The notes below the pieces were generated by a model that ran no database searches, had not been told where the DNA came from, and saw only the letters and a program-made list of their open reading frames with translations. A program made the translations under genes and the position numbers. A DNA stretch of 32,647 bases from a virus, in IMG/VR virus record IMGVR_UViG_3300008448_012240, positions 1 through 32,647 of that record, one strand, 5' to 3'. This document shows positions 1,437-30,001 of the stretch, piece by piece (within the stretch, counting starts at the first letter, position 1; each line of letters opens with the position of its first letter).

Positions 1437-1556
1437 TTATCTTATTACACCTCTTCCGCACTTCATCCGTTTATTTGCTGTTTGGTACGGCGTGTATTGT
1501 CTTGCGCAAGATTGTAGTAGCGCGAGTAGTATTATTGCTATTGCTATCTTTTTCAT
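1437..1556 (-). CDS. Small lipoprotein, 39 aa
   Basis: A tiny ORF with a typical lipoprotein signal: MKK, a hydrophobic stretch IAIAIILLALLQS, then a lipobox ending in Cys17. After cleavage a 23-residue basic peptide (RQYTPYQTANKRMKCGRG) would be anchored in the envelope. Its ATG overlaps the TGA of the secreted nuclease gene (ATGA), so the two are translationally coupled. It may act with the nuclease, as an inhibitor or anchor, or have a lysis-related role such as an outer spanin part. All three are inference. Confidence 0.7.
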   Translation of the reverse strand: MKKIAIAIILLALLQSCARQYTPYQTANKRMKCGRGVIR

Positions 1557-2137
1557 TTAATTAAATATTTTGAGTAGTCAAGTGTTGTGGGTTTCTCGTT
1601 TCTAAAGTAATACTTTTCTATGACATTTGAATATTTTATTGTCTTGTAGTATCCATCTGGGACTGTTGCACCTGTGGTGAGTTTGACCGAAGTCTTTGAA
1701 AATACGCACTCTATAGTTACTTCTACTTTTGGGTGCTCGTTAGCTAACAATCTTTCTCGTGCTTCTAATAACCTCCAAGTTGTTCTGTTCAAATCTTGGT
1801 TTTGAAGAGAGCAATTCAAATAGCTAAACGTCTTATACAACATTTCCTTGCTACAATTAAACGCTGCGGCTGGAGCCATGTGACCCTTATCGTATATGTT
1901 GTTAACGTAATCTAGATTGTCTGATGTTTTTATGCTGTCTACAGTATAAAAGTCCATGCCTTGTCTAGAAGCGGTACCGTTTGGGCATTTAATAGTGTAT
2001 CTAATCCACGTGGGTTGCTGTAATATCTCAGAATACACTACTTCGTATATGTCTGTTTTGATTTGAACTTTGTCTCTTAATTGTTGAGATAATCCAAAAA
2101 ATGGTAAGAATAACAGTAAGAACACTATTTTTTTCAT
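1553..2137 (-). CDS. Secreted DNA/RNA non-specific endonuclease
   Basis: A NUC1/EndA-type beta-beta-alpha metal nuclease that would cleave DNA and RNA without strong sequence preference. An N-terminal signal peptide (MKKIVFLLLFLPFFGLSQ) implies export. The catalytic motif appears as YDKGHMAPAA near residue 102 (DRGH in most homologues, with the general-base His kept), followed by SYLNCSLQNQDLNRTTW near residue 125, which matches the metal-binding Asn segment and the LN..W..LE helix. At 194 aa it is short for the family but complete. It is coupled to the lipoprotein gene downstream. In a phage it could digest host or competitor DNA in the envelope, or extracellular DNA during exit. Confidence 0.88.
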   Translation of the reverse strand: MKKIVFLLLFLPFFGLSQQLRDKVQIKTDIYEVVYSEILQQPTWIRYTIKCPNGTASRQGMDFYTVDSIKTSDNLDYVNNIYDKGHMAPAAAFNCSKEMLYKTFSYLNCSLQNQDLNRTTWRLLEARERLLANEHPKVEVTIECVFSKTSVKLTTGATVPDGYYKTIKYSNVIEKYYFRNEKPTTLDYSKYLIK

Positions 2138-2483: not shown

Positions 2484-3125
2484 TTATTTTGTGTATTTGA
2501 ATATGAATCTTTCAGGTGCAATATTATCAACGATTACAACTTCAATTATATTCAAACCCGTTTTAAGATAGTTATTTAGATTAGTTGTGTTTGATCTTCT
2601 AGCAAATGTAACTTCGTTATACTTAACTTCACCTAAAATAGAATACACTCGTATATGTTCAATATAGTTTAGTGACCCATAACTGCTTTTAATTATTCCT
2701 CCATCAATAGATATATCTAATTTGTAAGGACCTTTAACAACTATTATAGTATTTCCTTCAACTAAATTAAGAGCAAAATTAGAAGTATTGAGTTCAAGCC
2801 AACCCATATCGGGGTTTGTAAAGCTAGGACACGATGTTTCTGCTTTTACTCTAAATTTTATATTAGCTGGATTCGACCTAAATACACTGACGATGACGCA
2901 ACTATCGGGTCTCACTTGTATATCAATTGCCGGATCCTGATCGGCTTTTGTTCTAATTCTTGCTTCACAGTTTTGTTTATTACACACTCTAAAGGTGTGT
3001 TCACCAAATGAGTATCCTAAATAGAATATCTTAATGACGTTGTTCTCAAAGAACTGTCCTCCGTTTTGTGCTAACGATGCCGTATAAATAAGCATCAGTA
3101 AAAGCGTTGTGATAACTGTTTTCAT
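2484..3125 (-). CDS. Exported protein with T9SS-like C-terminal sorting domain, 213 aa
   Basis: Begins with a signal peptide (MKTVITTLLLMLIYTASLAQ). The central part is beta-rich with two Cys pairs (VCNKQNCEA and DSCVI...SCPS), which fits an Ig-like or adhesion fold. The last 60 residues read IRVYSILGEVKYNEVTF, then LKTGLNIIEVVIVDN, then FIFKYTK. This matches the layout of type IX secretion type-A sorting domains (YD..GR ... L..G.Y.V.V ... K..K). The 4141-5274 protein has the same end. The protein is therefore probably sent to the surface of the infected cell or the medium. Its target is unknown. Confidence 0.75.
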   Translation of the reverse strand: MKTVITTLLLMLIYTASLAQNGGQFFENNVIKIFYLGYSFGEHTFRVCNKQNCEARIRTKADQDPAIDIQVRPDSCVIVSVFRSNPANIKFRVKAETSCPSFTNPDMGWLELNTSNFALNLVEGNTIIVVKGPYKLDISIDGGIIKSSYGSLNYIEHIRVYSILGEVKYNEVTFARRSNTTNLNNYLKTGLNIIEVVIVDNIAPERFIFKYTK

Positions 3126-3138
3126 TTTTAGGTAGGGT

Positions 3139-3237
3139 TTATTTTATTTTTCTTATCTGTTTTTCTACGTCTATTATTCCAAATACGCATATTCCTATTA
3201 ATATACCAAATATGCTACCTATTATTAAGTCTTGCAT
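3139..3237 (-). CDS. 32-aa single-pass membrane peptide (copy B)
   Basis: A short ORF: MQDL, a hydrophobic Gly/Ile-rich helix, then VEKQIRKIK. Shares the CVFG(I/A)ID segment and charge layout with the 34-aa peptide at 2374-2478. It lies between the 86-aa gene (2-base gap) and the exported protein gene. Function unknown; a small envelope or export-associated peptide is possible. Confidence 0.62.
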   Translation of the reverse strand: MQDLIIGSIFGILIGICVFGIIDVEKQIRKIK

Positions 3238-3239
3238 AG

Positions 3240-3500
3240 TTATACTATTAAATCGTCAATAACTATATTATATTCGCTGATTAAATCATTTATCTTTTCA
3301 AACACTTTATCCAATAAATCGTAATCGTGATCAACTCCACCCCTAATTTCCTCAGCCTCCAATTCTCTTAGTATATCTTTCTTAGTGTTGTACACCAGTT
3401 GCCATATCATTAGAGCCATATCAGTTGACTTGATAGCTCTTAGGTGTTCCATCCTATCATCACCGTCTGTTAAATCAAATTCTAAAATTGCTTTTGCCAT
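3240..3500 (-). CDS. Conserved phage-type hypothetical, 86 aa
   Basis: The opening AKAILEFDLTDGDDRMEHLR followed by a helix with DMALMIWQL matches a small soluble protein often seen in phages of many hosts, of unknown role. The rest is helical and acidic and ends hydrophobic (IVIDDLIV). The gene follows a 77-base non-coding stretch carrying a candidate promoter, so it probably heads the transcript that runs down to the nuclease and thyA. Confidence 0.75.
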   Translation of the reverse strand: MAKAILEFDLTDGDDRMEHLRAIKSTDMALMIWQLVYNTKKDILRELEAEEIRGGVDHDYDLLDKVFEKINDLISEYNIVIDDLIV

Positions 3501-3577
3501 AACATATTTTTATAAAAGTAATAATATTTTTTATTATAACGTAAAATATATTTTTGGTTATAAGAACCAAATTTTTA
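3501..3577 (-). promoter_or_regulatory. AT-rich intergenic region with hairpin and candidate promoter
   Basis: Just after the stop of the 188-aa gene there is a perfect 7-bp stem (3553-3559 with 3565-3571, 5-base loop). Next, on the minus strand, comes TATATTTTACGTTATA, which shares TATATTTT and GTTATA with the 32012-32065 region and resembles the Bacteroidota -7 element TAnnTTTG. A further imperfect dyad (GTTATAATA/TATTATTAC) follows. This looks like the end of one transcript and the start of the next, though the hairpin is A/T-rich and weak. Confidence 0.4.
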
Positions 3578-4144
3578 TCAATCCCACCAAGATTCTATAT
3601 GTCTTTCCATTAATTTAAACAACAACTTTCTTGCTCTCTCGTGATTCTCTCTAGAAATTTGCATAGCTATATAACATTTATCTCTTAGTCTACTCTTAAC
3701 TTTTGGTTGCCTTATTATTTTTTTATAAACTAATGGATACTTCTTGAAGTAATTATCGAAGTTTTCTGATAACTCCTCTATGCGAAGCTGTTTAACATCA
3801 TCACGGCCTGGAACATCATCCCAGTGATATTCGCTTTTGTGATAGTCCATGTATTCCATATGATAATATTCTTCTCTCACTTTTTTAATAAGACGAGCAC
3901 ACGTCATCATGCGTTCAGCATCTCTATTAGCGTTTAGGTGAATACCTCTACGACCAATATACTCTGCTTGATGAGTGAGTTTTTTCTCTAACAGTATCCA
4001 AATATAGTGGTCGTCCCAATCTCTGTCTTTCCAAATTAAAGGAAACCACCTCCATAGATTCTTGATCCCTGTTATAAAGTCTTTATGATAATATCTCGCC
4101 TCGTGAAGGAGCCAATACTCTAATCTATTCAATAACTTTTTCAT
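3578..4144 (-). CDS. Conserved phage-type hypothetical, 188 aa
   Basis: A basic, Trp- and Tyr-rich protein with no known fold. The run LWRWFPLIWKDRDWDDHYIW (about residues 29-48) is typical of a family widespread in phages and without assigned function. The rest is helical with many His/Arg/Glu residues (RRGIHLNANRDAERM, SRENHERARKLLFKLM). It overlaps the upstream exported protein gene by 4 bases (ATGA). Confidence 0.75.
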   Translation of the reverse strand: MKKLLNRLEYWLLHEARYYHKDFITGIKNLWRWFPLIWKDRDWDDHYIWILLEKKLTHQAEYIGRRGIHLNANRDAERMMTCARLIKKVREEYYHMEYMDYHKSEYHWDDVPGRDDVKQLRIEELSENFDNYFKKYPLVYKKIIRQPKVKSRLRDKCYIAMQISRENHERARKLLFKLMERHIESWWD

Positions 4145-5274
4145 TTTATGTATTTTATAGTTTTACTAGAATAAAAATTATCGTGTATAATCACTCGTAT
4201 ATAGTTCATTCCGCTCTTTAACGCGGTAGCTATATCTAATCTATTTTCATTACTCGGTTTGGTGATTCTACGCCTATACTGCAATCTACCAAAATTATCG
4301 TAAATTATTACGTCGTATATATACTTTTCTCTGTACTTAAAATTAACAATTAGCTGTTCATTTATCAAATTTATTTCTGTAGTTTTACGATAATTTGAAA
4401 CATATAAATCTTCTTCTTTAATGGGTAATATTTTGTTACATGTACAACTCCCTCTGAGTGTGTCGAATATATAGGTTTCATTTGTGGCACTATTGTACGC
4501 ACCGGGAGTTGCTACTGTCGCAGATTGTATTGTCCACTTTGTCGCATCAAAATACTCAGCATCAGATGTTCCTACAAATGCTGCTGAAGTTCCCGACATA
4601 GCCACATTTGATATAAGAGGAGCAACCGCATTACCTACCATATCAACAGTAGTAGTGCAGCCTGAAACGTTCGTTGATTTGCCGTACACCACTCCATGTA
4701 TTAAATTAAACGATGGATCTCGAACCTGAATGCCATCTCCAGCGTTAGCTAACCCGATATTTGCCCAAGTGCCTGTTGATACATAAGTACACGCTGCGTA
4801 ATTGGTTCTCACAATACAACTTGAAGCAGCGGGTAGTGTCGTGCAATATTCAAGAGACAGGTGATTGCTTGGCACTATATAAACGCAATCATTATTTACC
4901 CAGTCATAAGGATCATCTGCAGGCAGTATTAAGTCCCTGTCCGCTGCGTTGTAAATAACAATAATAGCTCCTACTGGTAAATTGTTCCATGGAAGTTCAT
5001 TTTTAAATCTCATATGACCAGTGGCCATTCCAGATCCTGTGAAGTGATTAAGCGGTGAGAAGTCTCCATTATTGTCATCCAATACCCAACCGGCTATGTT
5101 TACTTTAGCTAATACACAATTTGAATTGGTTATTGTTGTGGCAGAAGACACTACTAGTTCTACCCACTCTTTAGCGCCACTGGCACCCTGTGAGAATTCG
5201 TTGATACGAATAGATTGAGCCGTTGTAGAGATGCATATCAATACATTAAACACTAAATACAATATGTTTTTCAT
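4141..5274 (-). CDS. Exported lamin-tail-domain protein with T9SS-like C-terminus, 377 aa
   Basis: A signal peptide (MKNILYLVFNVLICISTTAQ) is followed at once by IRINEFSQGASGAKEWVEL, the signature start of a lamin-tail domain, an Ig-like beta sandwich common in Bacteroidota secreted proteins and extracellular nucleases. The domain spans roughly residues 20-255, with several Cys pairs. The C-terminal 75 residues (VIIYDNFGRLQYRRRI ... LKSGMNYIRVIIHDN ... IKYIK) match a type-A T9SS sorting domain and align with the end of the 213-aa protein. Probably displayed on or released from the infected cell. Substrate unknown; no nuclease domain is seen. Slightly richer in small residues than neighbours, as usual for secreted proteins. 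Confidence 0.82.
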   Translation of the reverse strand: MKNILYLVFNVLICISTTAQSIRINEFSQGASGAKEWVELVVSSATTITNSNCVLAKVNIAGWVLDDNNGDFSPLNHFTGSGMATGHMRFKNELPWNNLPVGAIIVIYNAADRDLILPADDPYDWVNNDCVYIVPSNHLSLEYCTTLPAASSCIVRTNYAACTYVSTGTWANIGLANAGDGIQVRDPSFNLIHGVVYGKSTNVSGCTTTVDMVGNAVAPLISNVAMSGTSAAFVGTSDAEYFDATKWTIQSATVATPGAYNSATNETYIFDTLRGSCTCNKILPIKEEDLYVSNYRKTTEINLINEQLIVNFKYREKYIYDVIIYDNFGRLQYRRRITKPSNENRLDIATALKSGMNYIRVIIHDNFYSSKTIKYIK

Positions 5275-6125: not shown

Positions 6126-6380
6126 ATGAAAAGTTTTTTACTAAAGATGTTGGGATCTGGGACTGGTATTAGTTCCAAAAGATTCATAGGATTCATGGCT
6201 TCTTTAACGATGGTTTTCATAGCTATCGTTGATTTATTTACAGATAAAACTGTTTCAGAATACGTATTTGATGGCCTCATGTGGTTGGCCATTTCAGGTT
6301 TAGGATTCGTTGCTAGCGAAAGATTTGCAAACGTATTGAGTGCTAGATATACCAAAAAAAACGATAACGAAAATCTTTAA
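6126..6380 (+). CDS. Two-helix membrane protein, holin-like (only plus-strand gene)
   Basis: 84 aa with a short N-terminal amphipathic region, a GTGISSKRFIGF motif, two hydrophobic helices (about residues 20-37 and 47-65) joined by DLFTDKTVSEYVFDG, and a charged C-tail. The size and layout fit class II holins and match a small membrane protein family I associate with Bacteroidota phages. The true coding strand is plus: the membrane pattern is coherent there, while the opposing 91-aa minus frame is not. It diverges from the thioredoxin gene, and its stop overlaps the stop of the DUF4494-like gene. It could control lysis, but no endolysin is nearby. Confidence 0.75.
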   Translation: MKSFLLKMLGSGTGISSKRFIGFMASLTMVFIAIVDLFTDKTVSEYVFDGLMWLAISGLGFVASERFANVLSARYTKKNDNENL

Positions 6381-13364: not shown

Positions 13365-14102
13365 CTATATGTAATCTACAAAGTCTGAGAAGTCTTCGGT
13401 GGGTTTTAAATTCTTGTCGGCCTTTTCTACGCTCTCTTTATTTAGGTGATCAACTTCCATACCCAATTTTTTAATGTGACTAACGTAGAAGTCGTCTAGC
13501 TGGTAAAACTCTTTCTTTTCTTTTTTACCTTGTTCTGCTATCATAGCTATTGTTTCTACTTTCTCAACAACCGAGTCTTCAAAGAAATCCAAACAGTGCA
13601 GGAAGGCGCAGTTATAACAAACATATTCTATGTTCTGTATTCTCCAATCGGATTTATCTCCGTTCTTAAAGTTCATCATCAAAGGTACCTTTGCGTCTTC
13701 TACTCGCTTTGTTTGAAACTCGCAACGATAACACTTCTCTTCAAGCTTGTTGTACTCTAATAAACTCTTCTTTAGCTTAGTCAATCTCTCTGGAGTTGCC
13801 TTCTGTCCCTCTCTGAGTATGTTTTCCCAGTTCATCCTTTGTTTACCGCCAACCCAAGATCTGCCTAATACGCCTTTCATGGCTTGGTTCTTGTGTATTT
13901 CAAAGAGACTTTTACCAGTTTCTAGATCTTTGTATGCTTTAGCGTACTTCTTATATGTTGGATAAGTTACTTCCAAAAAGTCAGCGGCTTTCTGGTTTGA
14001 CGTTGTATTTGCCATCGCTCTACGAATCTCTTCTTCTGTGATTTCGTAGCCTTTATATACCCAATTTCCTACTTGGTTTTCAAAATACTTTTCTTCACTC
14101 AT
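13365..14102 (-). CDS. HTH plus HNH-fold zinc protein lacking catalytic His
   Basis: Residues about 20-57 form a helix-turn-helix (EEEIRRAMANTTSNQKAADF, then TYPTYKKYAKAY). Residues about 123-170 follow the HNH layout: CYRC, then VPLMMNFKNGDKSDWRIQNI, then CYNC. Two CxxC pairs for structural zinc and the Asn of the motif are kept, but the DH of a normal 'LDHINGD' is NF and the final His after CxxC is Ala. Cleavage is therefore unlikely, and a sequence-specific DNA-binding or transcription-control role is more probable. The C-terminal 60 residues are acidic (EKADKNLKPTEDFSDFVDYI). Overlaps the upstream gene by 4 bases. Confidence 0.72.
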   Translation of the reverse strand: MSEEKYFENQVGNWVYKGYEITEEEIRRAMANTTSNQKAADFLEVTYPTYKKYAKAYKDLETGKSLFEIHKNQAMKGVLGRSWVGGKQRMNWENILREGQKATPERLTKLKKSLLEYNKLEEKCYRCEFQTKRVEDAKVPLMMNFKNGDKSDWRIQNIEYVCYNCAFLHCLDFFEDSVVEKVETIAMIAEQGKKEKKEFYQLDDFYVSHIKKLGMEVDHLNKESVEKADKNLKPTEDFSDFVDYI

Positions 14103-15187: not shown

Positions 15188-16474
15188 TTACTCGATTGTT
15201 AATAGACTCATGTCAAATTCTGGGTTGTTGACGCGCAAATCGTTTCGTATCAATGCTTTGTTTTTTATAGAAAGCACCGCTGATCCAAATTCGTAATCAC
15301 CGAATTCCTCCACTTGATCTATTAACTTGTGTAAATGCTGTATGTTTTGGTAGATATACTCTAAATTTTCTGTTGAATGTACATACAAACATGCGTTATA
15401 GTTATTTTTACTGTCTGCTAATTTATATATTTTATTGTAGTCCGTTTGATTATAGAATTTTTTAGATACTTCCCAATCTTCATTTGAAAATCCATAAAGT
15501 ATATTTGAGTAGCTATGTTCTGATATAATTTCTTGTCTATTTTTAACTTTATCTAATAGTTCAGGTTTAATTAAATAAATTCTACTAAAATACGGTTCTA
15601 AATTAATAGCTAAGTCTAGAAGTAAATCGTGTTCGGAGTCTATTAATAGATCTATATCATACTTAGATAGTTTAGATTCTCCGTGATTAAAAGATCCCCA
15701 TTTTCTAACGAATCTTCTGAGCTCTACCATGTCTGCTTTATTTTGCATTGCGACTCTAGTTTGAGCTTCTTTATTTTCTGAATCGAACCAATTTTTTCCT
15801 CTTGAAGATACACAAGTGAAGTGGTATACGTTAGATGCAAAGGTTTGTTTCAATTTTATTCCTAATTGCATACATCTTTGTACCAAATCTGAATCGCACC
15901 TTGATCTTCTGAACAACGTGTCATATCCTCCCATTTTGTTCCATGTATCTTTATGAAAAGTATAAGGAGCAAAGAAATAGTCTATGCTTTTATTTGACTT
16001 TACTTTTTCTGAATATAGTAAAAAGTCTTGCATATTGAACTCTTCGGGAGTCAAACCAAAATTAGCGGTAAACGTTTTATCAGATTGCCCATGGAGGGGT
16101 GGTTCTATTCTTGTAGAACTCATTATGGTATTTTCTTCTAAACTATTTAGTACATTTGTATCATAATGTTTTGATACAATCATATCGCTTTGTAGATAAC
16201 TAACTATGTCATATTTAGCGAGTTCTACTATTAAATTGCAGTTTCTTTCTGGTCCGACTACTGGTTTAACTTTGTGAGTAACGATCTTTAAATCGTGAAA
16301 ATCTTTTTTAATGGATTTTAAATAGTCTAAAGTGCCATCGTTGTCTGAATCTATAAAAACTAGAATTTCATGTTCTTTATTGTCTAAATTGTCTCTTAGA
16401 GACTTTAATAGCAGCTTTGTGTATTCTAAAGTATTTGGCCCAGTATTAGTAGCAAATGTTATCTTTTTGCTCAT
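15188..16474 (-). CDS. Glycosyltransferase, GT2-like GT-A fold, two-part, 428 aa
   Basis: Transfers a sugar from a nucleotide-sugar to an unknown glycan acceptor. The N-terminal half is GT2-like: ITFATNTGPNTLEYTKLLLK, ILVFIDSDNDGT near residue 37, a metal-site region SYLQSDMIV near residue 93, and FRRSRCDSDLVQRC near residue 192, resembling the GT2 acceptor region. The C-terminal 170 residues are not recognised and look like an extra alpha/beta domain (SNILYGFSNEDWEVSKKFYN). The start at 16474 is preferred over 16510: it lies one base after the FkbM-type stop with an A-rich leader. This is the last gene of the island. Confidence 0.82.
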   Translation of the reverse strand: MSKKITFATNTGPNTLEYTKLLLKSLRDNLDNKEHEILVFIDSDNDGTLDYLKSIKKDFHDLKIVTHKVKPVVGPERNCNLIVELAKYDIVSYLQSDMIVSKHYDTNVLNSLEENTIMSSTRIEPPLHGQSDKTFTANFGLTPEEFNMQDFLLYSEKVKSNKSIDYFFAPYTFHKDTWNKMGGYDTLFRRSRCDSDLVQRCMQLGIKLKQTFASNVYHFTCVSSRGKNWFDSENKEAQTRVAMQNKADMVELRRFVRKWGSFNHGESKLSKYDIDLLIDSEHDLLLDLAINLEPYFSRIYLIKPELLDKVKNRQEIISEHSYSNILYGFSNEDWEVSKKFYNQTDYNKIYKLADSKNNYNACLYVHSTENLEYIYQNIQHLHKLIDQVEEFGDYEFGSAVLSIKNKALIRNDLRVNNPEFDMSLLTIE

Positions 16475-16475
16475 T

Positions 16476-17123
16476 TTATAAATTTTCTTTATGTACAAAA
16501 ATCTTATCAACGCGTACGCTAGATACTTCTACGTATCCCAAATCTTTCATAAAATTAAGTACATTCTCCGTATTAGCATCGTATCTATTCAACCACTTTT
16601 CACAAAACTCTAAACACACGGTTGGTTTATATTTTTTTATAGTTTCTACTGTGCCTAATAAAGCTTCTAATTCATAACCTTCTACATCGTATTGTATTAA
16701 ATCGCACGCTGGTAAATTAAGATCATCTATTCTAACAGTGGGCGTGTAACCTTGTCCGGAAATATGAACACCTCCTGTATCTATTGGTTTATCTTCTCTA
16801 ATCAATTGTTGCGTTTGTACAGTTTTTTTGCTATTGCCTACGCAAGCTTGCATCTTTATAACATTAGGAGAAGTTACATTTTGATTCAAACAGTAAAAAT
16901 TAACCGGGTCTGGCTCAAAGGTGTACACAGCTTTAAAGTGAGATACAAATTGACTTAGTATGAATCCGCAATTACCTCCCGCTTGTACCATAACGTTTTT
17001 ATTTTTGACATGCGGTAAAACATAATCTACTAAATCTATACTATCATTTTGACCCGGCCAACTAGTTACATCATTCTTTGGCCACACCCATTTGTTATCC
17101 TTTATTATAACTAGATCTTTCAT
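16476..17123 (-). CDS. FkbM-family methyltransferase, 215 aa
   Basis: An S-adenosylmethionine-dependent methyltransferase, FkbM-type, likely methylating a sugar hydroxyl on the island's glycan. The SAM site is VMVQAGGNCGFILS (44-57) and VYTFEPDPVNFYCL (67-80). Other family signatures are IDDLNLPACDLIQYDVEGYE near residue 133, which includes the catalytic-region Asp/Glu, and ALLGT..TI. The gene overlaps the SDR gene by 29 bases and runs one base from the GT gene downstream. Confidence 0.88.
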   Translation of the reverse strand: MKDLVIIKDNKWVWPKNDVTSWPGQNDSIDLVDYVLPHVKNKNVMVQAGGNCGFILSQFVSHFKAVYTFEPDPVNFYCLNQNVTSPNVIKMQACVGNSKKTVQTQQLIREDKPIDTGGVHISGQGYTPTVRIDDLNLPACDLIQYDVEGYELEALLGTVETIKKYKPTVCLEFCEKWLNRYDANTENVLNFMKDLGYVEVSSVRVDKIFVHKENL

Positions 17124-18015
17124 AATTTATAGTTTTTGTTAATCCTTCAACCAAATCTACATTATTTTTTATATCTAAAGCGTTTTTTAGTTTCTTGTTA
17201 TTTCCACACACATAATCAAATGTGGAGTCTCTGTTCTTATTTTCATCAAAAACTAATTTACTGTTGCTATTAGTTAACTTTTTAATCAGCTCTATTATTT
17301 CTCTTATCTTATATTGATTTCCTGAACAAAGGTGATAAACTCCTAGCCTGTTTGTTGTTATTAGTTGGTAAACATAATTTGCAAAATCATCGATGTATAG
17401 ATAATCTACCGTCGATTTACACTCGTCTAAAATTACTTCTTCATTTTTTATAAACTTACTAACCAATCTCGGTATAAGTCTAGTTTTAACATCGTTTGGT
17501 CCGTATATGTAACATGGTTTTATCCAAATCCAAGCTATTCCATACGCTTCACAAAGCATTTTACTATAATTCTTAAAAGTTAATTTTGAAAGTCCATATA
17601 AATTAGTTGGATTTTCTAAATCTTCTTCGCTTATGGGATAATTTATTTTTCCATTTTCTGCGAAACTTCCAAAACCAACAAACATAGGTTTACTTTCCAA
17701 TTCATTTATAATTTCTATTAATTTTATGCTCGAAGGTAAATTATGATAAAATTGTCCCGGATCGTTAATATCTGCATGACTGTTTCCACCAAACCATCCA
17801 CAGTGTATTACAATATGCGGTTTAAAAGCTCTTATTGATTCCTTGTGTAATATCAAATCATCATTATCTGATTTTATATATTGTACTCTATCCAATACAT
17901 CTGTTATATTGTTACAGTTTTTAGAAAACACAAGAATGCTATGATTATCTTTTAAAAACCGCCTAACTACATTTGATCCTAAAAATCCATTCCCACCAGT
18001 AACAATTACATTCAT
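17095..18015 (-). CDS. NAD(P)-dependent SDR epimerase/dehydratase/reductase, 306 aa
   Basis: An extended short-chain dehydrogenase acting on a nucleotide-sugar. Rossmann motif is TGGNGFLGS (G7, G10, G13); catalytic residues are S117 in GFGSF and Y140-xxx-K144 in LYGLSKLTFK; a substrate-binding KPCYIYGPND follows. The reaction cannot be told from sequence: C4-keto reduction, C3/C5 epimerisation or reduction of a branched side chain (YerF-like) are possible. It sits between the FkbM and HAD genes with overlaps, in the run that also contains the ThDP enzyme. Confidence 0.87.
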   Translation of the reverse strand: MNVIVTGGNGFLGSNVVRRFLKDNHSILVFSKNCNNITDVLDRVQYIKSDNDDLILHKESIRAFKPHIVIHCGWFGGNSHADINDPGQFYHNLPSSIKLIEIINELESKPMFVGFGSFAENGKINYPISEEDLENPTNLYGLSKLTFKNYSKMLCEAYGIAWIWIKPCYIYGPNDVKTRLIPRLVSKFIKNEEVILDECKSTVDYLYIDDFANYVYQLITTNRLGVYHLCSGNQYKIREIIELIKKLTNSNSKLVFDENKNRDSTFDYVCGNNKKLKNALDIKNNVDLVEGLTKTINYERSSYNKG

Positions 18016-18389
18016 AGATTGAGCAGCGTTTTTATAGTATTTGATTGTGTTTCTATATCGCTGAACTGTAAAGCTCTGTCATCTATATAATAATCAGCCA
18101 TTATTTTTGGACTCGGTCCTGATAACTTAATTTGATCGGGTAAATTCTGGTTGACTGCATCAAACTCTAACCCTTTTTCTTTACACCATTGTATTGCCTC
18201 CGTTAAAACAGGGTATTGTTCGTTGTCGCCTCTGTTTGTCCACAGTATTAACTTGTGCCCAGCTTTTCTTAGATCTATTAGAATTTTCATTAACTGTTTG
18301 TGTTGTTCATTCTGCTCTCCTATTTTTGGAAAAGCGTATTCACACAGCGTACCGTCAAAGTCTACTGCAATTTTATATATTTTATTCAT
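18012..18389 (-). CDS. HAD-family phosphatase, 125 aa
   Basis: A minimal HAD hydrolase without a large cap. Motif I is AVDFDGTLCE (D10 nucleophile, D12 acid), motif II ILWTNRG (48-54), and the terminal acidic motif is ADYYIDDRA (98-106). Lys near KIMADYY is the likely motif III Lys. The closest known kin are small Bacteroidota HADs of BT0820 type. In the island it could remove a phosphate from a sugar-phosphate or an aldolase product; this is inference. Overlaps the SDR gene by 4 bases and the Fe-S gene by 8. Confidence 0.85.
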   Translation of the reverse strand: MNKIYKIAVDFDGTLCEYAFPKIGEQNEQHKQLMKILIDLRKAGHKLILWTNRGDNEQYPVLTEAIQWCKEKGLEFDAVNQNLPDQIKLSGPSPKIMADYYIDDRALQFSDIETQSNTIKTLLNL

Positions 18390-19542
18390 GTATTTCTCCT
18401 ATGTTTTCTGTTACTAAATTTTTTGCTATTTGATAAGCGCTTTTTATTAAATTATCATCCTCATAAAAGTTCTCTTCGTCTATATACTTTTCTATAATGT
18501 TTCTCGCAAAAGTACCGATAGCTATACCATTGCATCTAACACCTACAAGTTCAGATAGTTTCTTACTGTGCGAATTTGTACCACCTGATAAAACTATATA
18601 CACGCCTTGATGATGTCCATGAGCCCTATATACTTTATTTGTAATAACTTTATCTCCATCCTTTTTCACTGATTTTTTATCTAGTCTGATATTGAATTTT
18701 TTATTTATGACGTCTGCTGTTGATATCGCTTGCAGTGTCGTGTTATAATCGTCTGCTCCTCCACTCATTGGATAACCGTCTGCCTGAATTATAATTTTGT
18801 TATTAGATATTCTCTTTGCGTTTTCTATTCTATGTTCCAAGTTTAAATTTCCCAAATTCAATCTATCTAAACACATAGAGTTAAAATTATTTGGGTTTAT
18901 TTCGTTTATTAATTCCCACTCCTTTAAAGTAATTTCTTCCTCACCAACTGCAGCATGTAATTCAAAAGTCTCTGCTCCTGCTTCCATACACAAAGGTAGC
19001 AATTCTCTTAACTGTCTTTCGTTATGTCGATATGATATGATGTCGTCTTTGGGGCATATGTTGCTACATTTTCCGCAACCTATACAAAGATCTTTTATCA
19101 CTATCTCTTTACTAGGATCTTCTACTTCGTAGCTACCTCCAAGATTTATATAGTGTTCTAAATTCTTTTCAAATCCAAACGGTATAGCGTTTGTGGGACA
19201 CACAGGAGCGCACAGGCCACACGATACACACGTGTTGGGGTTTATATAAGACTTTCTAACGTGATGATCTCCAGGCATTCCTATGCTAACCATGATGAAT
19301 GGTCTTGTTGTTAAGGTAATACCAAGTTTGCTTGCATATTGAAATGCCATGTCTATACCTTGACCAGCGTATTTAACTACTTCAACATTAGCTGATACGT
19401 CTAATACCTTTGCACCCGCTAAAGTGTAAACGAAAGCCAATTTTTTAACGTGATGCTTATCTTCGTTTCCTGCTCCACAAATAAGCTTAAAACATTTCTC
19501 TTGATTCAGGAGTCTCTGAAGTGTACTATACCTTTCTTGCAT
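18382..19542 (-). CDS. LdpA-like protein with two [4Fe-4S] ferredoxin motifs
   Basis: 386 aa. The first 95 residues (CFKLICGAGNEDKHHVKKLA, TLAGAKVLDVSANVEVVK) resemble LdpA of cyanobacteria, a TIM-barrel-like Fe-S protein. Two complete ferredoxin motifs follow: C105-x2-C108-x2-C111-x3-C115 and C153-x2-C156-x2-C159-x3-C163. The last 220 residues look like an LdpA/dihydropyrimidine-dehydrogenase-type alpha/beta barrel (IIIQADGYPMSGGADDYN, YIVLSGGTNSHSKKLSEL). LdpA senses redox state in cyanobacteria; here it lies between HAD and aldolase genes in a sugar operon. It might carry electrons to the [2Fe-2S] dehydrase, which otherwise lacks a reductase partner. This is inference, and a direct radical or reductive step is also possible. 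Confidence 0.75.
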   Translation of the reverse strand: MQERYSTLQRLLNQEKCFKLICGAGNEDKHHVKKLAFVYTLAGAKVLDVSANVEVVKYAGQGIDMAFQYASKLGITLTTRPFIMVSIGMPGDHHVRKSYINPNTCVSCGLCAPVCPTNAIPFGFEKNLEHYINLGGSYEVEDPSKEIVIKDLCIGCGKCSNICPKDDIISYRHNERQLRELLPLCMEAGAETFELHAAVGEEEITLKEWELINEINPNNFNSMCLDRLNLGNLNLEHRIENAKRISNNKIIIQADGYPMSGGADDYNTTLQAISTADVINKKFNIRLDKKSVKKDGDKVITNKVYRAHGHHQGVYIVLSGGTNSHSKKLSELVGVRCNGIAIGTFARNIIEKYIDEENFYEDDNLIKSAYQIAKNLVTENIGEIHE

Positions 19543-19543
19543 T

Positions 19544-20299
19544 TTATTTTCTATTTTTTAATAAGCCTATTCTTTCTGAGTAATCTGCGCTTAGCTTTGA
19601 AGATATAGATAACTTATACTGTAACCACTCTATCTCAAAGTCAAGAGCTTTTTGTATATTATTGTCTATATTAACTATATTTGATTTGTTTAAACCAACT
19701 ACAACATTTCTTGTTTCTATTCTATCTAACAAGCCTTTTGCGAAAACGTCTTTTACAAATTTGGTACTCCTTGTAGATACGTTTCCTCCCATAGTAGTAA
19801 CATAATTGTATTTTTTAGCCTTTGTTAGTATGTCTTCAACCTTATCATAAATAAAGCTGCTATCTACTTCTGACTTATTTAGATTGTAGGACTTAGAAAA
19901 GTCTGATCTACCTACGATTATGCCTTTCAAATGACCGTGACCATTTTCTAATATGCTATCTATGTTTTCATAAGACGTCTTACTTTCTATAACTACATAA
20001 GAATCTGCTCTATTCGGATAGTCTTTCATCATAGTTATAAACTTATCTAAGGCGAATGGTGTTTCTACCATAGGCGCGATTACGCCGTTTATTCCCATTC
20101 TTATACAATTGTACAAATCGCTCTTGGCTTCGCATCCACCTATCTTCACGAAAGATTGTAGTCCGCATATCTCTGTTACTCTTTTAAATGCAACAACATC
20201 ATTTAATAAAACTCCTTCGTCTTCGAAAGATTGTTTCATACCTATGACACCCCAATTTTTACCCAGGTTATCTAAGCTCTGTTTAAGATCAATTACCAT
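19544..20299 (-). CDS. HpcH/HpaI or CitE-like aldolase, 251 aa (first of two)
   Basis: A TIM-barrel aldolase/lyase related to the phosphoenolpyruvate/pyruvate superfamily. Signature elements are GINGVIAPMVETPFALDKF (near residue 78), SYVVIESKTSYENIDSILEN and GIIVGRSDFSKSY. The VIES Glu and VGRSD Asp are the expected Mg ligands. Such enzymes make or cleave 2-keto acid bonds, typically using pyruvate. Substrate unknown. The gene overlaps the second aldolase by 11 bases; the pair shares fold but not close sequence. Confidence 0.78.
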   Translation of the reverse strand: MVIDLKQSLDNLGKNWGVIGMKQSFEDEGVLLNDVVAFKRVTEICGLQSFVKIGGCEAKSDLYNCIRMGINGVIAPMVETPFALDKFITMMKDYPNRADSYVVIESKTSYENIDSILENGHGHLKGIIVGRSDFSKSYNLNKSEVDSSFIYDKVEDILTKAKKYNYVTTMGGNVSTRSTKFVKDVFAKGLLDRIETRNVVVGLNKSNIVNIDNNIQKALDFEIEWLQYKLSISSKLSADYSERIGLLKNRK

Positions 20300-20993
20300 T
20301 TTCTATATCTTTTAATGATTGTAAAATAAAATCTGTATCCATTCCCCAAATTAATAAATTGGGTCTATCTTTTTTTTGTTTTCTAAACCTTTCTATATCT
20401 TGTTTGGTTGGTAAAAATAAACCTAATTTATGTATTGGAACACATTTATAAATCAAGTCCATTTTATTTACGAAATTATCATCTTCAAATTCACCGGGTT
20501 TCAATAAACTCGAAGATATATCGTAAGGACCTATCAAATAATAATCTACTTTTGAAGCTAGCTCTAATAATTTATCTAAATTATTTATTGCTTGTGATGT
20601 TTCTACTTGTATTATTATTGTAGGTTTATTGCTACCCAGCTTGTGTTTGCCCCATCCGTTTTCTCTCACCAATCCTATTCCTCTATTTCCTCCTTTAATT
20701 GGATAATTGCAGTATTCTATTATTTCTTTGGCGTAAGACTCATCGTTTACTGTAGAAAACACAACGCCGTCTATTCCAGCGTCTAAGCACATTCTTACCA
20801 ACTGCTTATTTAGATCAGTAAATCTTACAAAGCACTTCTTACCACTCAACGTAATTACCTGTATGCACGAGTAAAGAGTTTCATTGTTGAAATGTCCGTG
20901 CTCTGTGTCTATCAACACTCCGTCTAAAGTAGAGTAAGTAAGTAGCTCTGATATTAGGGGAGATGGTATGGTTTGTAGTGTTAAATCTATCAT
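20289..20993 (-). CDS. HpcH/HpaI-family aldolase, 234 aa (second of two)
   Basis: A class II pyruvate aldolase. DGVLIDTEHGHFNNETL (24-40) matches the family's 'D...D.EH' segment, followed by FVRFTDL, GIDGVVFSTVND, GIGLVRENGWG, then IIQVETSQAINNLD (metal Glu) and YLIGPYDISSS (metal Asp). All catalytic positions look intact. Retro-aldol use would yield pyruvate, the donor used by the ThDP enzyme encoded next door; a forward use would extend a sugar or aldehyde. Overlaps the ThDP gene by 4 bases. Confidence 0.86.
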   Translation of the reverse strand: MIDLTLQTIPSPLISELLTYSTLDGVLIDTEHGHFNNETLYSCIQVITLSGKKCFVRFTDLNKQLVRMCLDAGIDGVVFSTVNDESYAKEIIEYCNYPIKGGNRGIGLVRENGWGKHKLGSNKPTIIIQVETSQAINNLDKLLELASKVDYYLIGPYDISSSLLKPGEFEDDNFVNKMDLIYKCVPIHKLGLFLPTKQDIERFRKQKKDRPNLLIWGMDTDFILQSLKDIENGN

Positions 20994-22765
20994 CTTAGTT
21001 TGTAAGAAAGTTCATTAACGGTTATCATATTTGATTCTATCTGCTCTATTGACAGAAGTGGAGACATCTCTTCCAAAGGTGGCGCAAGTATTGCGTCTGC
21101 TACTGGAACTCCTTTAACTTTTGGCACTAAATCCTGTTCTGGATTCATGTGACACTCGTAGATAGCGTAGCCGTCTTGATTGAAAAAATCCTCTAAAGAT
21201 GACGACTTTGAATCGAAGTACGGTATGCCAAAAGCTGTTGCTATTTTCTCAAAACTGGGTAACGTAACGCCAGTATTTGGATCTACTCCCGTATACCTAC
21301 CGTTAAAAAGCATTTTTTGTGTATGCTTAATGAATAGATAGCCTTCGTTGTTGAATACTACTATTTTTATTGGAAGGTTATATCCGACCACCGTTTGTAG
21401 TTCTTGTAGATTCATCATCATGCTTCCGTCTCCGTCTAACAATACTGCTTTCTTTCCGCTTAAAGCTGCGCCTACTGCAGATGGCAACCCGTGTCCCATT
21501 TCTCCCAAACCGTTTGATGCAAAAGCTATTTGATTCTCTTTTATCTTGAAAGCTTGATGAGCGCAAGGTAACGGAGTTCCTTGGCCGATGACTAATATAT
21601 CATCTTTGTGCATCAAGTCAGACAATCTGTTGATCAAGACGTATGAATTATCAAACTCTTTGTCGTCCTCTTTGTGTGTGTCTTCTATTATTGGAAAGTC
21701 TGAATTGTATTTTACGCACCTATCATACCACTCGGAAATATCGTTGTTGTAACTGTGTTCTTGTAGAAGATATGTAATTATGTGTTTTACGTCGGTATGA
21801 ATCTTTACATTGTATCTAATTGGGTGTTTGTTTAATTCATTCTCATCATTGTTCACCATAACTATCTTTGCATTTGGAGCAAAGTTATCTATGTTGTACC
21901 CAGTTTGGGGTAAAGCCAATCTACTTCCGAGTACTATTAATAGATCACAATTCTGTAGTATGAAGTTTGCTCTTCTCTGTCCGTAAAGACCTGGTGTTCC
22001 GAAGTTGTAAGGATGATCATGAGACAACACGTCTATAGCCGACCAAGACAGGAGTACTGGCATTTTGTATGATCTTACTAAATCATCAAATACCTTTTGG
22101 CTTTTTGATGCTTTTATTCCATATCCTCCCAATATCACGGGCCTCTTGGCAGTTTTTAATAAATCTAGCAATTCTCCAACGCTTACAGCTGCTAAATCTG
22201 GTTTTGGTTCTTTAAATACAGTTAGTTCGGATTCGTTGACTGTCGCACTTTGAACGTCGAAAGGCACATCTATCCAAGCAGGTCCATGTCTATCATTTAA
22301 AGCGGTGCTGTACGCTTCATTAAGATCTTTTAGTATATCGTTCTTGTCTAAAACAGTCTTAGCATACTTCGTCACTTTTTTTACCATATCAACCACATCA
22401 AAGCCTTGAGTACCCATCATTCTAAGATCTGCGTGTTCTTTTATATACTTAGTAGATTCTTGTCCAGATATTACTAAGCAGGGAATGGAATCTGCCCAAT
22501 TACTAATGACTCCAGTTATCGCATTGGCAGATCCTGCTCCAGCTGTAACTATAGCAGCAGACAAATTTCCAGTTGCTCTATAATAAGAGCCAGCAGCCAT
22601 GACTGCGGCCTGTTCGTGATGAACATACACGAGTTTTATAAAATCCCCGCCTAGATTTGATATAGAGTCAAATATGTGGGAGTTAGCAGACCCTATTATT
22701 CCAAAGACCACTCTTATATCCCTTTGTATTAGAAAATGTGCTATTAGATCACTAACTTTTACCAT
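20990..22765 (-). CDS. ThDP-dependent enzyme, acetolactate-synthase/YerE type, 591 aa
   Basis: A thiamine-diphosphate enzyme that probably decarboxylates a 2-keto acid and transfers the resulting acyl unit. Three domains: PYR (1-170) with the catalytic Glu E51 in HHEQAA, a central domain (190-340) with the FAD/nucleotide-like LLIVLGSRL, and the PP domain with GDGSMMM at 445-451 and NN at 472-473 (GDG-x25-NN ThDP motif). Full length and intact. Related enzymes in surface-polysaccharide loci (YerE) add acetaldehyde from pyruvate to a 4-keto-3,6-dideoxysugar. The presence of a DdhC-type dehydrase and a 4,6-dehydratase in the same operon makes that role plausible. Acetolactate synthesis for amino acids is less likely here. 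Confidence 0.88.
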   Translation of the reverse strand: MVKVSDLIAHFLIQRDIRVVFGIIGSANSHIFDSISNLGGDFIKLVYVHHEQAAVMAAGSYYRATGNLSAAIVTAGAGSANAITGVISNWADSIPCLVISGQESTKYIKEHADLRMMGTQGFDVVDMVKKVTKYAKTVLDKNDILKDLNEAYSTALNDRHGPAWIDVPFDVQSATVNESELTVFKEPKPDLAAVSVGELLDLLKTAKRPVILGGYGIKASKSQKVFDDLVRSYKMPVLLSWSAIDVLSHDHPYNFGTPGLYGQRRANFILQNCDLLIVLGSRLALPQTGYNIDNFAPNAKIVMVNNDENELNKHPIRYNVKIHTDVKHIITYLLQEHSYNNDISEWYDRCVKYNSDFPIIEDTHKEDDKEFDNSYVLINRLSDLMHKDDILVIGQGTPLPCAHQAFKIKENQIAFASNGLGEMGHGLPSAVGAALSGKKAVLLDGDGSMMMNLQELQTVVGYNLPIKIVVFNNEGYLFIKHTQKMLFNGRYTGVDPNTGVTLPSFEKIATAFGIPYFDSKSSSLEDFFNQDGYAIYECHMNPEQDLVPKVKGVPVADAILAPPLEEMSPLLSIEQIESNMITVNELSYKLR

Positions 22766-23721
22766 ACGAATTTGTTCTTATAGTAATTTACAATATCTTT
22801 TAATTCTGTATCAAATTGTTTTTTGGGTGACCAACCTAAAGATCTGAGTTTATCATCATTTAATGCGTATCTTATGTCTTGTCCTGGTCTATTACAAGAA
22901 AAGTCGATGTACTTTGTATAGTAACTTTCATCTAGTTTCATTTGTTCAAACTCTTCTATAATTTTTACCACAGTATCCATGTTCTTTTGCTCAAACCCGC
23001 CGGCCACGTTATATATCTCTCCAACTTTTCCCCTTTCGATTAACGTAATTACGGCAGCAGCAGTATCTTCAGCGTGTAACCAATTTCTATAGGGTTCTCC
23101 GTTATTATGTAAAGGTATTTTTCTACCTATATTCAAAAACTTTATTGCTTTTGGTATTAGTTTCTCAACATATTGACCCATTCCGTAATTATTTGTGGGT
23201 CTAACAATAATATAAGGAATGTTATGAGTTCTTCCCCAAGCCATAACCAGCATGTCAGCTGCCGCTTTTGTAGCCGAATACGGGTTACTGGGTTTTAGTA
23301 TGTCTGTTTCGTAGTGATCGCCACTTTCTATGTCTCCGTAAACTTCGTCAGTGCTAAAGTGTATCAATACAGGTTTTTTTCCGTTTTCGCTTCTATAGTT
23401 TTTTATTAACTCGAGAAGATTGTGTACACCATCTATGTTTGATTTCACAAACTCTAAGCTGCTCATTATTGAATTTCCTACGTGCGTTTCAGCCGCTGTG
23501 TTTATTATGTAATCGCAATCGTAAAGAAACGTTAATTCATTTATATCACAATGCACAAAAGAAAAGTTTTTGTTTTTCTTAAATTCAGTTAGCAAATCTC
23601 TATTCGCAGCGTAAGTTATTTTATCAACGCCTTTAACGTACCAACCAAGCTCTAAACACTTCCTCGTTACGTAAGATCCGATGAAACCCAAACAACCTGT
23701 AACATATACTATTTTTTTCAT
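22759..23721 (-). CDS. NDP-glucose 4,6-dehydratase (RmlB/RfbG type), 320 aa
   Basis: Converts NDP-glucose to NDP-4-keto-6-deoxyglucose, the branch point for deoxysugars. Rossmann motif G9-CLGFIG; catalytic region HFSTDEVYG (T124, D125, E126) and Y148-xxx-K152 in NPYSATKAAADM. RPTNNYGMGQYVEKLIPKAI and PYRNWLHAEDTAAAV are typical RmlB segments, and the C-terminus NRPGQDIRYALNDDKLRSLG matches too. Sequence is nearer RmlB (dTDP) than CDP-glucose dehydratase, so the nucleotide is uncertain. No RmlA, RmlC or RmlD is visible. Overlaps both neighbours by 4-7 bases. Confidence 0.92.
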   Translation of the reverse strand: MKKIVYVTGCLGFIGSYVTRKCLELGWYVKGVDKITYAANRDLLTEFKKNKNFSFVHCDINELTFLYDCDYIINTAAETHVGNSIMSSLEFVKSNIDGVHNLLELIKNYRSENGKKPVLIHFSTDEVYGDIESGDHYETDILKPSNPYSATKAAADMLVMAWGRTHNIPYIIVRPTNNYGMGQYVEKLIPKAIKFLNIGRKIPLHNNGEPYRNWLHAEDTAAAVITLIERGKVGEIYNVAGGFEQKNMDTVVKIIEEFEQMKLDESYYTKYIDFSCNRPGQDIRYALNDDKLRSLGWSPKKQFDTELKDIVNYYKNKFVW

Positions 23722-25367
23722 ATTAAGTCTTTTATGTATTTATTATATATCTTATCATTATCGTATCTATATTTTAAAGCCAATTCGTAGTTCTCCTCTA
23801 TAATTGTTTTGTCTATATCATAACCTCTGTTTCTTATTGTTTTTAATACTTCTAAAAGCTCTTCATGCGTATCAAAAGTAATTATTCCTTTTTCATTAAA
23901 AAAATCTGAAATGTTTGTACATCCTCTATAGATTGGAATAGTGCCTGTTAAAAAGCAATCCAATATCTTTTCAGTAAAATAGTTTTTATATATACCATTT
24001 TCTATAGCAATAGAATACTTATAATCTTTTAAACCAATTAATTTTCCATTTATTGGGTTATAGCCCATTCCATACACATCTACAGTAGAATCGTTTGCTA
24101 ATATTAACTCAACACAAGAAACTCGAAATCTGTGACCTTCTGTAAAAGTTTTGTTTGAACTTATTATAGATACGCCTTTACTTTTATCATATATTGAATA
24201 TAGACTTGTGTCTGAAAGTGTAGGATATTCTCTCGTATGTACGCTTTTGTTTAACACACACTCGTATCCTCCATTTCTAAATACTGCATTTGGTAATGTC
24301 AGCAGTATTTCGTCATAAGTGAGTATACGATCAAACATCTTATAATTTTTGTATACAATATCGTAAACTCTCTGTTGTTCGAACAAGTATGGAGGCTCGT
24401 GTATGTCAGCTATCACCGGACACTTCTTATCTATGCTTATTTGCCCTTCGACATACTTAATAATCTCCATATCTGGGATTATTACCGCATCAAACTCTCC
24501 TTCGTGAAGATTATATACGTAGGTAAAGTCTTTTGGTATGTCGTTATTTTCTCTACTTCCACCAATAGCGTTTATCTGAGGTAATTTTTCTCCAGTTAGG
24601 CCTTCTTTGTAGTGTTTTTTGTTTCTGATTTCAATTTCATATTTCATGTTATCTTCAGACTCTCTGTGCCTAGTTCTTATTTGACACTGTTCGCTTGCGT
24701 TCCAAACGTAGGTTGGAAAATCAACAACGCCTATCTTTTCTTTTGGACACATTTCTAAACAGGGATAAGCAACCGCTAAATCTGGCGCATGATAGAACCA
24801 CTTGTTATTGTATGTTGATTTTATGTCATTAAGATCTATACTTTTTGGTAAAAATCCTCTAAAAGTTAGTAAGTGACTAGCTCTCCACACATCTCTCCTA
24901 TATAGTTTAAACTGATGCACAAAGTCTGGATATGGTGTGTTTTGTGGATTAGCTTTTGTAACATTTTCCGATCCATCATATACATAAAACTCTCCGTATG
25001 TCATCCAAACATCGTGTTTATTGTAGTAGTTGTTTAAATTTTCTAACACGTGTTCATCTATTAACCAATCATCTCCACACATAGATACGCATATTTCATC
25101 GTCTTCTAGTGATTCGTAAAACCTAACGTAATTATATATCGCTCCTCCATCAGCTCCAAGATTTATTTCATTTCTTATGAGATTAAACCTATTATCATTT
25201 TTTATAAGATCAGAAACTATTGAATTTGTGTTGTCTGTAGAGCAGTCGTCTACATAAACTACACTAAAATTTTTATAAGTTTGATTAAGCACACTAGCTA
25301 TATTGTAATACGCCCAATCTTCGTTGTTATAAGATGCAATTATTATTTTGAACTTATTTTGTTTCAT
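23718..25367 (-). CDS. Bifunctional glycosyltransferase: GT2 fused to GT10-like
   Basis: 549 aa with two catalytic domains. Residues about 1-250 are GT2: IIIASYNNEDWAYYNIASVL, VVYVDDCSTDNT, VSMCGDDWLID, then a CPKEKIGVVDFPTYVWNAS segment. Residues about 300-549 resemble GT10 (fucosyltransferase-like): RVSCVELILANDSTVDVYGM, then YKYSIAIENGIYKNYFTEKI (about 455-475), CFLTGTIPIYRG and a DTHEELLEVL tail. GT10 enzymes usually use GDP-fucose or related sugars. A GT2-GT10 fusion would add two sugars in succession. I do not recall it as a standard pair. Located directly downstream of the GT34-like gene. Confidence 0.83.
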   Translation of the reverse strand: MKQNKFKIIIASYNNEDWAYYNIASVLNQTYKNFSVVYVDDCSTDNTNSIVSDLIKNDNRFNLIRNEINLGADGGAIYNYVRFYESLEDDEICVSMCGDDWLIDEHVLENLNNYYNKHDVWMTYGEFYVYDGSENVTKANPQNTPYPDFVHQFKLYRRDVWRASHLLTFRGFLPKSIDLNDIKSTYNNKWFYHAPDLAVAYPCLEMCPKEKIGVVDFPTYVWNASEQCQIRTRHRESEDNMKYEIEIRNKKHYKEGLTGEKLPQINAIGGSRENNDIPKDFTYVYNLHEGEFDAVIIPDMEIIKYVEGQISIDKKCPVIADIHEPPYLFEQQRVYDIVYKNYKMFDRILTYDEILLTLPNAVFRNGGYECVLNKSVHTREYPTLSDTSLYSIYDKSKGVSIISSNKTFTEGHRFRVSCVELILANDSTVDVYGMGYNPINGKLIGLKDYKYSIAIENGIYKNYFTEKILDCFLTGTIPIYRGCTNISDFFNEKGIITFDTHEELLEVLKTIRNRGYDIDKTIIEENYELALKYRYDNDKIYNKYIKDLI

Positions 25368-25368
25368 A

Positions 25369-26100
25369 TTACAAATAATCTTTAAACTCGTTTTGCAGTA
25401 AATCTATTCTGTCAGCAGTGTTACATCCAGTTAAGTGAGCAAGAAAGCAATCTTTATTCCATGGAGAAGGTATACTGAATCGTCTATTTGGGCCAGTTCT
25501 ATTCGGATCTGCTTGCCATACGCTAGTTCTTGTTATAAACTCGGGTACTGCGTTTAAGTATTTGTGTTCTAATAGTCCATAATGTCTTCTAAGTGGGGTG
25601 TTATTGTGTATTACATTTAAACACGTTTGATCAGCACCATGATCATTTAAGAAGTGTTTACTATATTCTATAAACGTACTATACAACTCTTGAACGTGTT
25701 CTGTTGATTTTATTATAAAATTACCGGCACTGAATCCAACATGACCAGTACTACCGTCCATAGCTACTGGCCAATCATAAGAAAAATATATGGTATGTTC
25801 ATCATTTATAAAATCATCTATTGTAAAATTATCGTTTGTTATAACAGAATCTCCATCAATCCACATGACTACGTCGTAGTGCTCTAGCATTTGAAATGCG
25901 TGTATGGTACGAGCAAATCCTAAACCAATCGGGTTTTTACTATCTACTCCTATATCTGGAAATGATCTAAAGGATCTAAGCACATTAAAATCGTATCCGT
26001 GTTTTTGAGTATACCTTAATTTAGAAGGTATCGTAAGATCTAGCACGGAGTGCATTGCTTCGTCACAACCGGTAATTACCAATACGTGTTTGTTATTCAT
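25369..26100 (-). CDS. Glycosyltransferase, GMA12/MNN10 (GT34)-like, 243 aa
   Basis: A GT-A enzyme likely using a nucleotide-activated hexose. HVLVITGCDEAMHSVLDLTI at the N-terminus, VVMWIDGDSVITND near residue 78 (the D-G-D metal motif), SAGNFIIKS, HGADQTCLNVIH and LAHLTGCN near residue 224 match the GMA12/MNN10 layout known from fungi and plants and from some phages and bacteria. Overlaps the upstream GT gene by 8 bases. Confidence 0.8.
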   Translation of the reverse strand: MNNKHVLVITGCDEAMHSVLDLTIPSKLRYTQKHGYDFNVLRSFRSFPDIGVDSKNPIGLGFARTIHAFQMLEHYDVVMWIDGDSVITNDNFTIDDFINDEHTIYFSYDWPVAMDGSTGHVGFSAGNFIIKSTEHVQELYSTFIEYSKHFLNDHGADQTCLNVIHNNTPLRRHYGLLEHKYLNAVPEFITRTSVWQADPNRTGPNRRFSIPSPWNKDCFLAHLTGCNTADRIDLLQNEFKDYL

Positions 26101-28395: not shown

Positions 28396-28404
28396 TTTCT
28401 TTTT

Positions 28405-28659
28405 TTATAGACTGTTTAAATCTAAATCAGAATTATTCATTTTAACAATTAAATCTACGAGTGTAGATATTTGCGTACTTTTTATGATGCTGTTATCTTC
28501 AGTATTATCCCAATACTGATTATATTTGTCTCTGTGTATGGCATTCCAAAGATTATTCATTGGATTGTAGTGAAATACCCAATTAAATAAACACTCATTG
28601 GTTTTTGACTCAGGGTATACACCTTCGTAATCTTGGTATGTTTCTTGATTTTTTTTCAT
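28405..28659 (-). CDS. Hypothetical 84-aa protein in the glycan island
   Basis: Function not recognised. Rich in Asn, Tyr and Trp (FNWVFHYNPMNNLWNAIHRD, YNQYWDNTED), acidic and soluble. The NPMNNLWNAIHRD segment recalls small phage proteins that accompany glycosyltransferases. It lies between the GT2 and the E1 dehydrase, coupled by ATGA to the GT2 gene, and may be a cofactor or specificity subunit. Confidence 0.6.
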   Translation of the reverse strand: MKKNQETYQDYEGVYPESKTNECLFNWVFHYNPMNNLWNAIHRDKYNQYWDNTEDNSIIKSTQISTLVDLIVKMNNSDLDLNSL

Positions 28660-29297: not shown

Positions 29298-29306
29298 ATA
29301 GCGTAA

Positions 29307-29997: not shown

Positions 29998-30001
29998 ACT
30001 G

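Follow-up and report, generated by a model that had tools for sequence, protein, structure and literature searches.

Two phage proteins with divergent C-terminal tails as candidate cargo of the host type IX secretion system

Sequence comparisons make it very probable that two phage genes, referred to as A and B, encode cargo of the type IX secretion system of their host, and we strongly infer export by that system. The evidence supports a kinship between the C-terminal tails of A and B, a divergent phage subfamily, and the type A sorting domains; it does not make these tails textbook or proven members. The divergent tail, direct evidence of exchange, and the spread over phage groups are new here.

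Organization of the locus

The window, i.e., the whole stretch of DNA that was analysed, is an entire IMG/VR record of 32,647 bases, and its minus strand holds nearly all of its genes. Two open reading frames that had been placed at 2484-3125 and 4141-5274 exist at these coordinates, both on the minus strand. The features of the locus are as follows.

2484..3125, minus strand: gene A, 213-aa exported protein (NGGQFFEN family); open reading frame with homologues in further viral contigs
3069..3125, minus strand: signal peptide of A, residues 1-19, cleavage between SLA and Q; sequence rule, Q at +1
2778..3068, minus strand: payload of A, residues 20-116, all-beta, strongly conserved; alignment, dN/dS, AlphaFold2 model
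2487..2771, minus strand: type IX-like C-terminal sorting domain of A, residues 119-213; tail-family comparisons
4141..5274, minus strand: gene B, 377-aa exported lamin-tail-domain protein; open reading frame, LTD PF00932 E 7e-7
5218..5274, minus strand: signal peptide of B, residues 1-19, cleavage between TTA and Q; sequence rule, Q at +1
4426..5217, minus strand: payload of B, residues 20-283, lamin-tail domain reaching residue 198; PF00932 match, homologues
4144..4425, minus strand: type IX-like C-terminal sorting domain of B, residues 284-377; TIGR04183 13.3 bits (sub-threshold), tail family
1553..2137, minus strand: exported DNA/RNA non-specific nuclease with a signal peptide (Q at +1) and without a sorting tail; PF01223 79.9 bits

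Read along the minus strand, the genes are B, one of 188 aa, one of 86 aa, A, one of 77 aa, and the nuclease. The 188-aa gene and B overlap by 4 bases, as do the nuclease and the 77-aa gene. The sole clear plus-strand gene seen in the window (6126-6380) encodes a small membrane protein that is possibly holin-like. An Rfam search found no RNA.

Signal peptides

Among the window's open reading frames of at least 80 aa, only the products of A, B, and the nuclease gene pass a simple signal-peptide rule, and all three are cleavable before a glutamine. In A and B, a charged n-region and a hydrophobic core lead to small residues before the cleavage site. The N-terminal signal peptides originally predicted for A and B fit the Sec type by the rule. 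Both obey the Q-rule of Bacteroidetes signal peptides (PMC5837995). The Q-rule also holds in the homologues of A and B and in most exported proteins of the Flavobacterium phage immuto. Nearly all homologues of A and B have a signal-like N-terminus, the sequence of which diverges among the homologues of A. Because the Q-rule applies at all three cleavage sites of the window, the signal peptides point, independently of other evidence, to a Bacteroidota host for the phage. Phages of Porphyromonas gingivalis likewise encode Q-rule secreted proteins, i.e., proteins adapted to Bacteroidota Sec export, but the paper on them describes no type IX tails (PMC10367356).

The signal peptides also bear on whether A and B are instead virion proteins or Ig-like structural decorations that are not secreted. 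Phage virions often contain Ig-like domains, and PF18962-like repeats occur in a fibre protein of the contig G015. However, the signal peptides of A, B, and nearly all homologues would take these proteins out of the cytoplasm, the site of virion assembly, and the fibre repeats are internal to a protein without a signal peptide. A virion role for A and B is highly improbable.

C-terminal tails

Similarity between the ends of A and B had been noticed from short motifs. Each motif occurs once per protein, in the pairs YSILGEVKY / YDNFGRLQY, LKTGLNIIEVVIVDN / LKSGMNYIRVIIHDN, and FKYTK / IKYIK. The last 61 aa of A and B are 33% identical (E = 3e-5 in a single BLASTP comparison), and the two C-termini are homologous ~95-aa domains of one HMM family. 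A search of all loci for this family gave 19 tails, present in 16 of 16 phage records; 14 of the 19 were taken as distinct.

Are these tails type IX sorting domains, as originally predicted? The curated profiles place them below threshold. With TIGR04183, B scores 13.3 bits against a cut-off of 23 and A gives no match, while relatives score 22.8, 20.8, and 20.6 bits. Neither A nor B reaches the curated cut-off of PF18962. The type C domain of F. johnsoniae ChiA (NF033708) matches some relatives about as well as type A does, but the best of them (24.7 bits) is far under the cut-off of 40, and A and B give no match. Type A tails share a common fold at low sequence identity (PMC12618676). Because they diverge in sequence under one fold, the sub-threshold scores of the A and B tails are unsurprising. 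TIGR04183 also found no match in the cultured phages FpV4, phi14:2, and phi38:1 or in a 484-kb metagenome phage.

More sensitive evidence came from comparing profiles. A profile of the phage tails aligned with 30 bacterial TIGR04183 domains, taken as type A references from Persicobacter and Tenacibaculum plasmids, over 84 columns through to the C-terminus (hhalign probability 95.9, E 5e-9, score 47). None of 200 column shuffles scored above 16.6, and the controls with the reversed alignment and with the A payload gave 11.9 and 19.8. In the reverse search, the phage-tail profile was run against six frames of 2.9 Mb of Bacteroidota plasmids and phage immuto; it found five matches, and the best four were all on TIGR04183 domains. 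Furthermore, an HMM of the bacterial tails ranked the cargo proteins first among 680 phage open reading frames (E 0.0013 for B, 0.0099 for A), and its match in A and B falls within the C-terminal domain.

The alignment of 14 phage tails has an invariant glycine column and a nearly invariant terminal lysine. These columns were equated by alignment with published motifs, namely the glycine of the beta3-beta4 loop and the lysine of the last strand, both important in known tails (PMC11285876). A PNP-type motif near the domain start is absent in all 14 aligned phage tails; it is present in L121 and the immuto family.

Thus, the tails are like the type A domain (TIGR04183 / PF18962) in position, length, profile-profile homology, glycine, terminal lysine, and the signal peptide that precedes them, and are unlike it in falling below the curated cut-offs and in lacking the PNP motif. 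The original claim survives as one of relatedness, backed by the controlled profile-profile comparison, the reciprocal search, and a B homologue with a canonical type A tail (described below); as a claim of standard membership it fails at the TIGR04183 cut-off and at the PNP motif. Since sorting tails can be species-specific (PMC11285876), homology of the tails does not ensure their recognition.

Structure prediction was less specific. The AlphaFold2 model of A (pLDDT 81) contains two all-beta domains, the C-terminal one included, while the model of B, built from two sequences, has a pLDDT of 34. A fold search returned unspecific matches of the Ig/FN3 type, a common kind. DUF3244 proteins of Bacteroides thetaiotaomicron slightly stand out for the tail (Z 8.8), and no type IX tail structures were among the fold matches listed. 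When solved structures were searched by sequence with the tail profile, only chance-level matches appeared, RemZ (E 5.1) among them.

In a rival model, Sec exports A and B to the periplasm or outer membrane but the type IX system makes no use of the tail, which would be an Ig-like domain of a degenerate or ordinary kind. Such a model would account for the sub-threshold scores of single sequences, and Ig-like folds are common enough for fold matches to be unspecific. However, the tail matches type A domains from one end to the other at a score well beyond those of shuffles, and its functional glycine and lysine are conserved. It is always found at the extreme C-terminus, and it stands in place of the canonical type A tail that a homologous payload carries. 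An unused tail is unlikely.

PF18962 matches at 66 kb of G015 were dropped, being internal repeats of a fibre-like protein that mimic the sorting-domain motif and give false matches. This 1000-aa protein (L088, G015:C1:64000-72000) has SprB-type-like repeats and adjoins a baseplate-like protein.

Payloads

The payload of B is a lamin-tail domain that spans the full PF00932 profile (30 bits against a gathering threshold of 34.3, E 7e-7). Homologues of this payload (38% identity over 196 aa, E 5e-35) occur in three viral contigs of 75-128 kb (L121-L123) and end in a canonical type A tail, which scores 46 bits against the TIGR04183 cut-off of 23. By this comparison, the divergent tail of B occupies the position of a canonical type IX signal on a homologous protein, which is the strongest link between the phage tails and the type IX system. 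A third payload of 548-621 aa bears the phage tail in L017 and L023, and in L023 the genes for A, B, and the third payload lie in a row.

The payload of A is better conserved than its tail (mean identity of 66.6% versus 34-40%) and is under purifying selection; between L012 and L014, for example, dN is 0.034 and dS is 0.329. These two observations argue that the payload is not mere ballast. They also make it very unlikely that the tails act as decoys, jamming the type IX system and reducing the export of surface adhesins used as phage receptors, with the payload as ballast, even though type IX-linked gliding proteins matter for the adsorption of some flavophages (PMC13288928).

Weak matches of A-payload homologues to the archaeal fusexin Fsx1 (E 0.003-0.008) were disbelieved as probably due to chance. 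Neither A nor B nor the third payload gave a match when compared directly with the GenBank phage collection.

Exchange of payloads, tails, and signal peptides

Direct evidence of exchange comes from two cases. In L002, a fusion gene joins a B payload (78% identical) to an A-type tail, which is 68% identical to the tail of A (66% over a 97-aa alignment) and 29% identical to that of B. In L012 and L014, which are otherwise unrelated phages, the A payloads are 95% identical as protein and about 93-100% identical as DNA, whereas the identity outside the payload is 26% in the signal peptide, 34% in the tail, and about 45% in the flanking DNA. The similarity has sharp borders at both domain edges. 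In these phages, payloads and tails recombine, with the tails as interchangeable modules. The tail of the B homologue in L023 is too divergent for placement.

Why would tails be exchanged? Since tails are incompatible between some species, a payload could be re-addressed by a tail swap, and we infer that signal peptide and tail were swapped to suit another host. A wider and tentative reading, held at somewhat under even confidence, is that the conserved payloads form a shared secretome of Bacteroidota phages, re-addressed for each new host by swapping the signal peptide and type IX tail. Under that reading, the L012/L014 pair and the B payload with its four different tails would be snapshots of re-addressing.

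Phage context and host

The closest contig, G010 (L017; 180 kb), has several genes in common with the window at 65-77% identity. A T4-type capsid protein and a terminase are both encoded on G010, and likewise on G009, G017, G019, and the L123 contig. By terminase, portal, and head protein, L002, L009, and L018-L021 form a crAss-like group, and distant relatives of its terminase are found in phages on Flavobacterium, Cellulophaga, and Bacteroides. The L002 fusion gene lies directly upstream of an 81-aa-family gene, the terminase, the portal, and further head genes, and the A-type genes of L009 and L018-L021 occupy the same place. The gene families cross two unrelated phage groups because T4-type and crAss-like contigs both carry them. 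The relatives swap tags and payloads, which suggests, at the level of sequence, that several kinds of phage use the host secretion machine.

Two further observations concern the contigs themselves. The ~80-aa family found directly upstream of the terminase in crAss-like contigs (L002:1151-1384; L009:7962-8207) also occurs in the window (28405-28659), beside glycosyltransferases. Contigs of 78-287 kb from four metagenomes (L014, L015, L016, and L022) have an identical A gene and neighbours; they represent a single large phage that is widespread and encodes a T4-type capsid protein.

From 15188 to 32647, sugar and surface-glycan genes form a long series in the window, the extent of which is unusual for a phage. 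The series includes two epimerase-like genes, several glycosyltransferases, and the following:

27073-28395: DegT aminotransferase
20990-22765: thiamine-diphosphate enzyme
18382-19542: iron-sulfur protein

Genes resembling homing endonucleases (NUMOD3, HNH) are located at 31306-31881 and 13365-14102.

Could the contig be a bacterial fragment, with A and B as ordinary type IX cargo of a bacterium? Misassignment can occur among IMG/VR fragments, and sugar-metabolism genes are present at 15-32 kb. However, G010 has its T4-type capsid protein and terminase, and in L002 and L020 related genes are adjacent to those for terminase, portal, and capsid. A pattern search of 84,980 bacterial and archaeal genomes found no relatives, although the patterns catch near relatives only, so this absence is weak evidence. 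A bacterial origin of the fragment is extremely improbable. The predicted phage origin and Bacteroidota host are supported by the Q-rule, the phage relatives, and the structural genes in related contigs.

Comparison with known systems

Flavobacterium phage immuto (NC_055915) encodes a protein, gp012, with 56% identity to the window nuclease. Three genes away, immuto gp015 combines a cohesin domain with a canonical TIGR04183 tail (44.8 bits), and a further 26 viral contigs contain gp015 relatives. The immuto gp012-gp015 region is thus like the window in that a homologous secreted nuclease precedes a series of exported proteins, of which one has a canonical type A tail. It is unlike the window in that its payloads are C-type lectin and cohesin domains and its tail is canonical. 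The gp012-gp019 region as a whole (L043:9935-16409) mostly has Q-rule signal peptides and encodes a nuclease, a C-type lectin, a cohesin protein with a type IX tail, and others without known domains. The paper found on phages of strain LMO8 mentions neither immuto nor type IX secretion.

Among the open-access papers searched, the only description of phage-encoded type IX cargo is that of Cryophage (PMC7468147). As here, its genes with type A sorting domains vary among relatives and are thought to use the host type IX system. As payloads, Cryophage carries an endoglucanase, a GH39 hydrolase, and a PA14 protein, whereas the window has small beta domains and lamin-tail domains joined to a divergent tail. 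Beyond Cryophage, the exchange of payloads and tails is seen directly here, and both T4-type and crAss-like phages are involved.

Proposed mechanism and implications

How might A and B reach their destination? Guided by its signal peptide, each protein would enter the periplasm by way of Sec, and signal peptidase I would there expose the N-terminal glutamine. The presumed C-terminal beta-sandwich would then be recognised by the host type IX machine (SprA translocon, PorV shuttle), which would deliver the payload to the cell surface or into the medium. Phages may carry these genes as accessory cargo in otherwise unrelated genomes, recombining payloads and tails. The payloads, small Ig-like beta and lamin-tail domains, would most likely bind the surface of the infected cell or the surrounding matrix. 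Such binding, aided by the exported nuclease, may for instance hide receptors from rival phages. A role of this kind outside the cell, in surface masking or superinfection exclusion, is a conjecture and, while a reasonable guess, doubtful.

The question is directly testable in immuto on Flavobacterium sp. LMO8, a cultured phage with canonical cargo. Since curated profiles miss the divergent tails described here, such phage cargo is probably under-counted. If the proposed export is correct, large Bacteroidota phages would routinely use the host secretion machine that produces surface adhesins and enzymes, and infection would alter what the cell displays outside.
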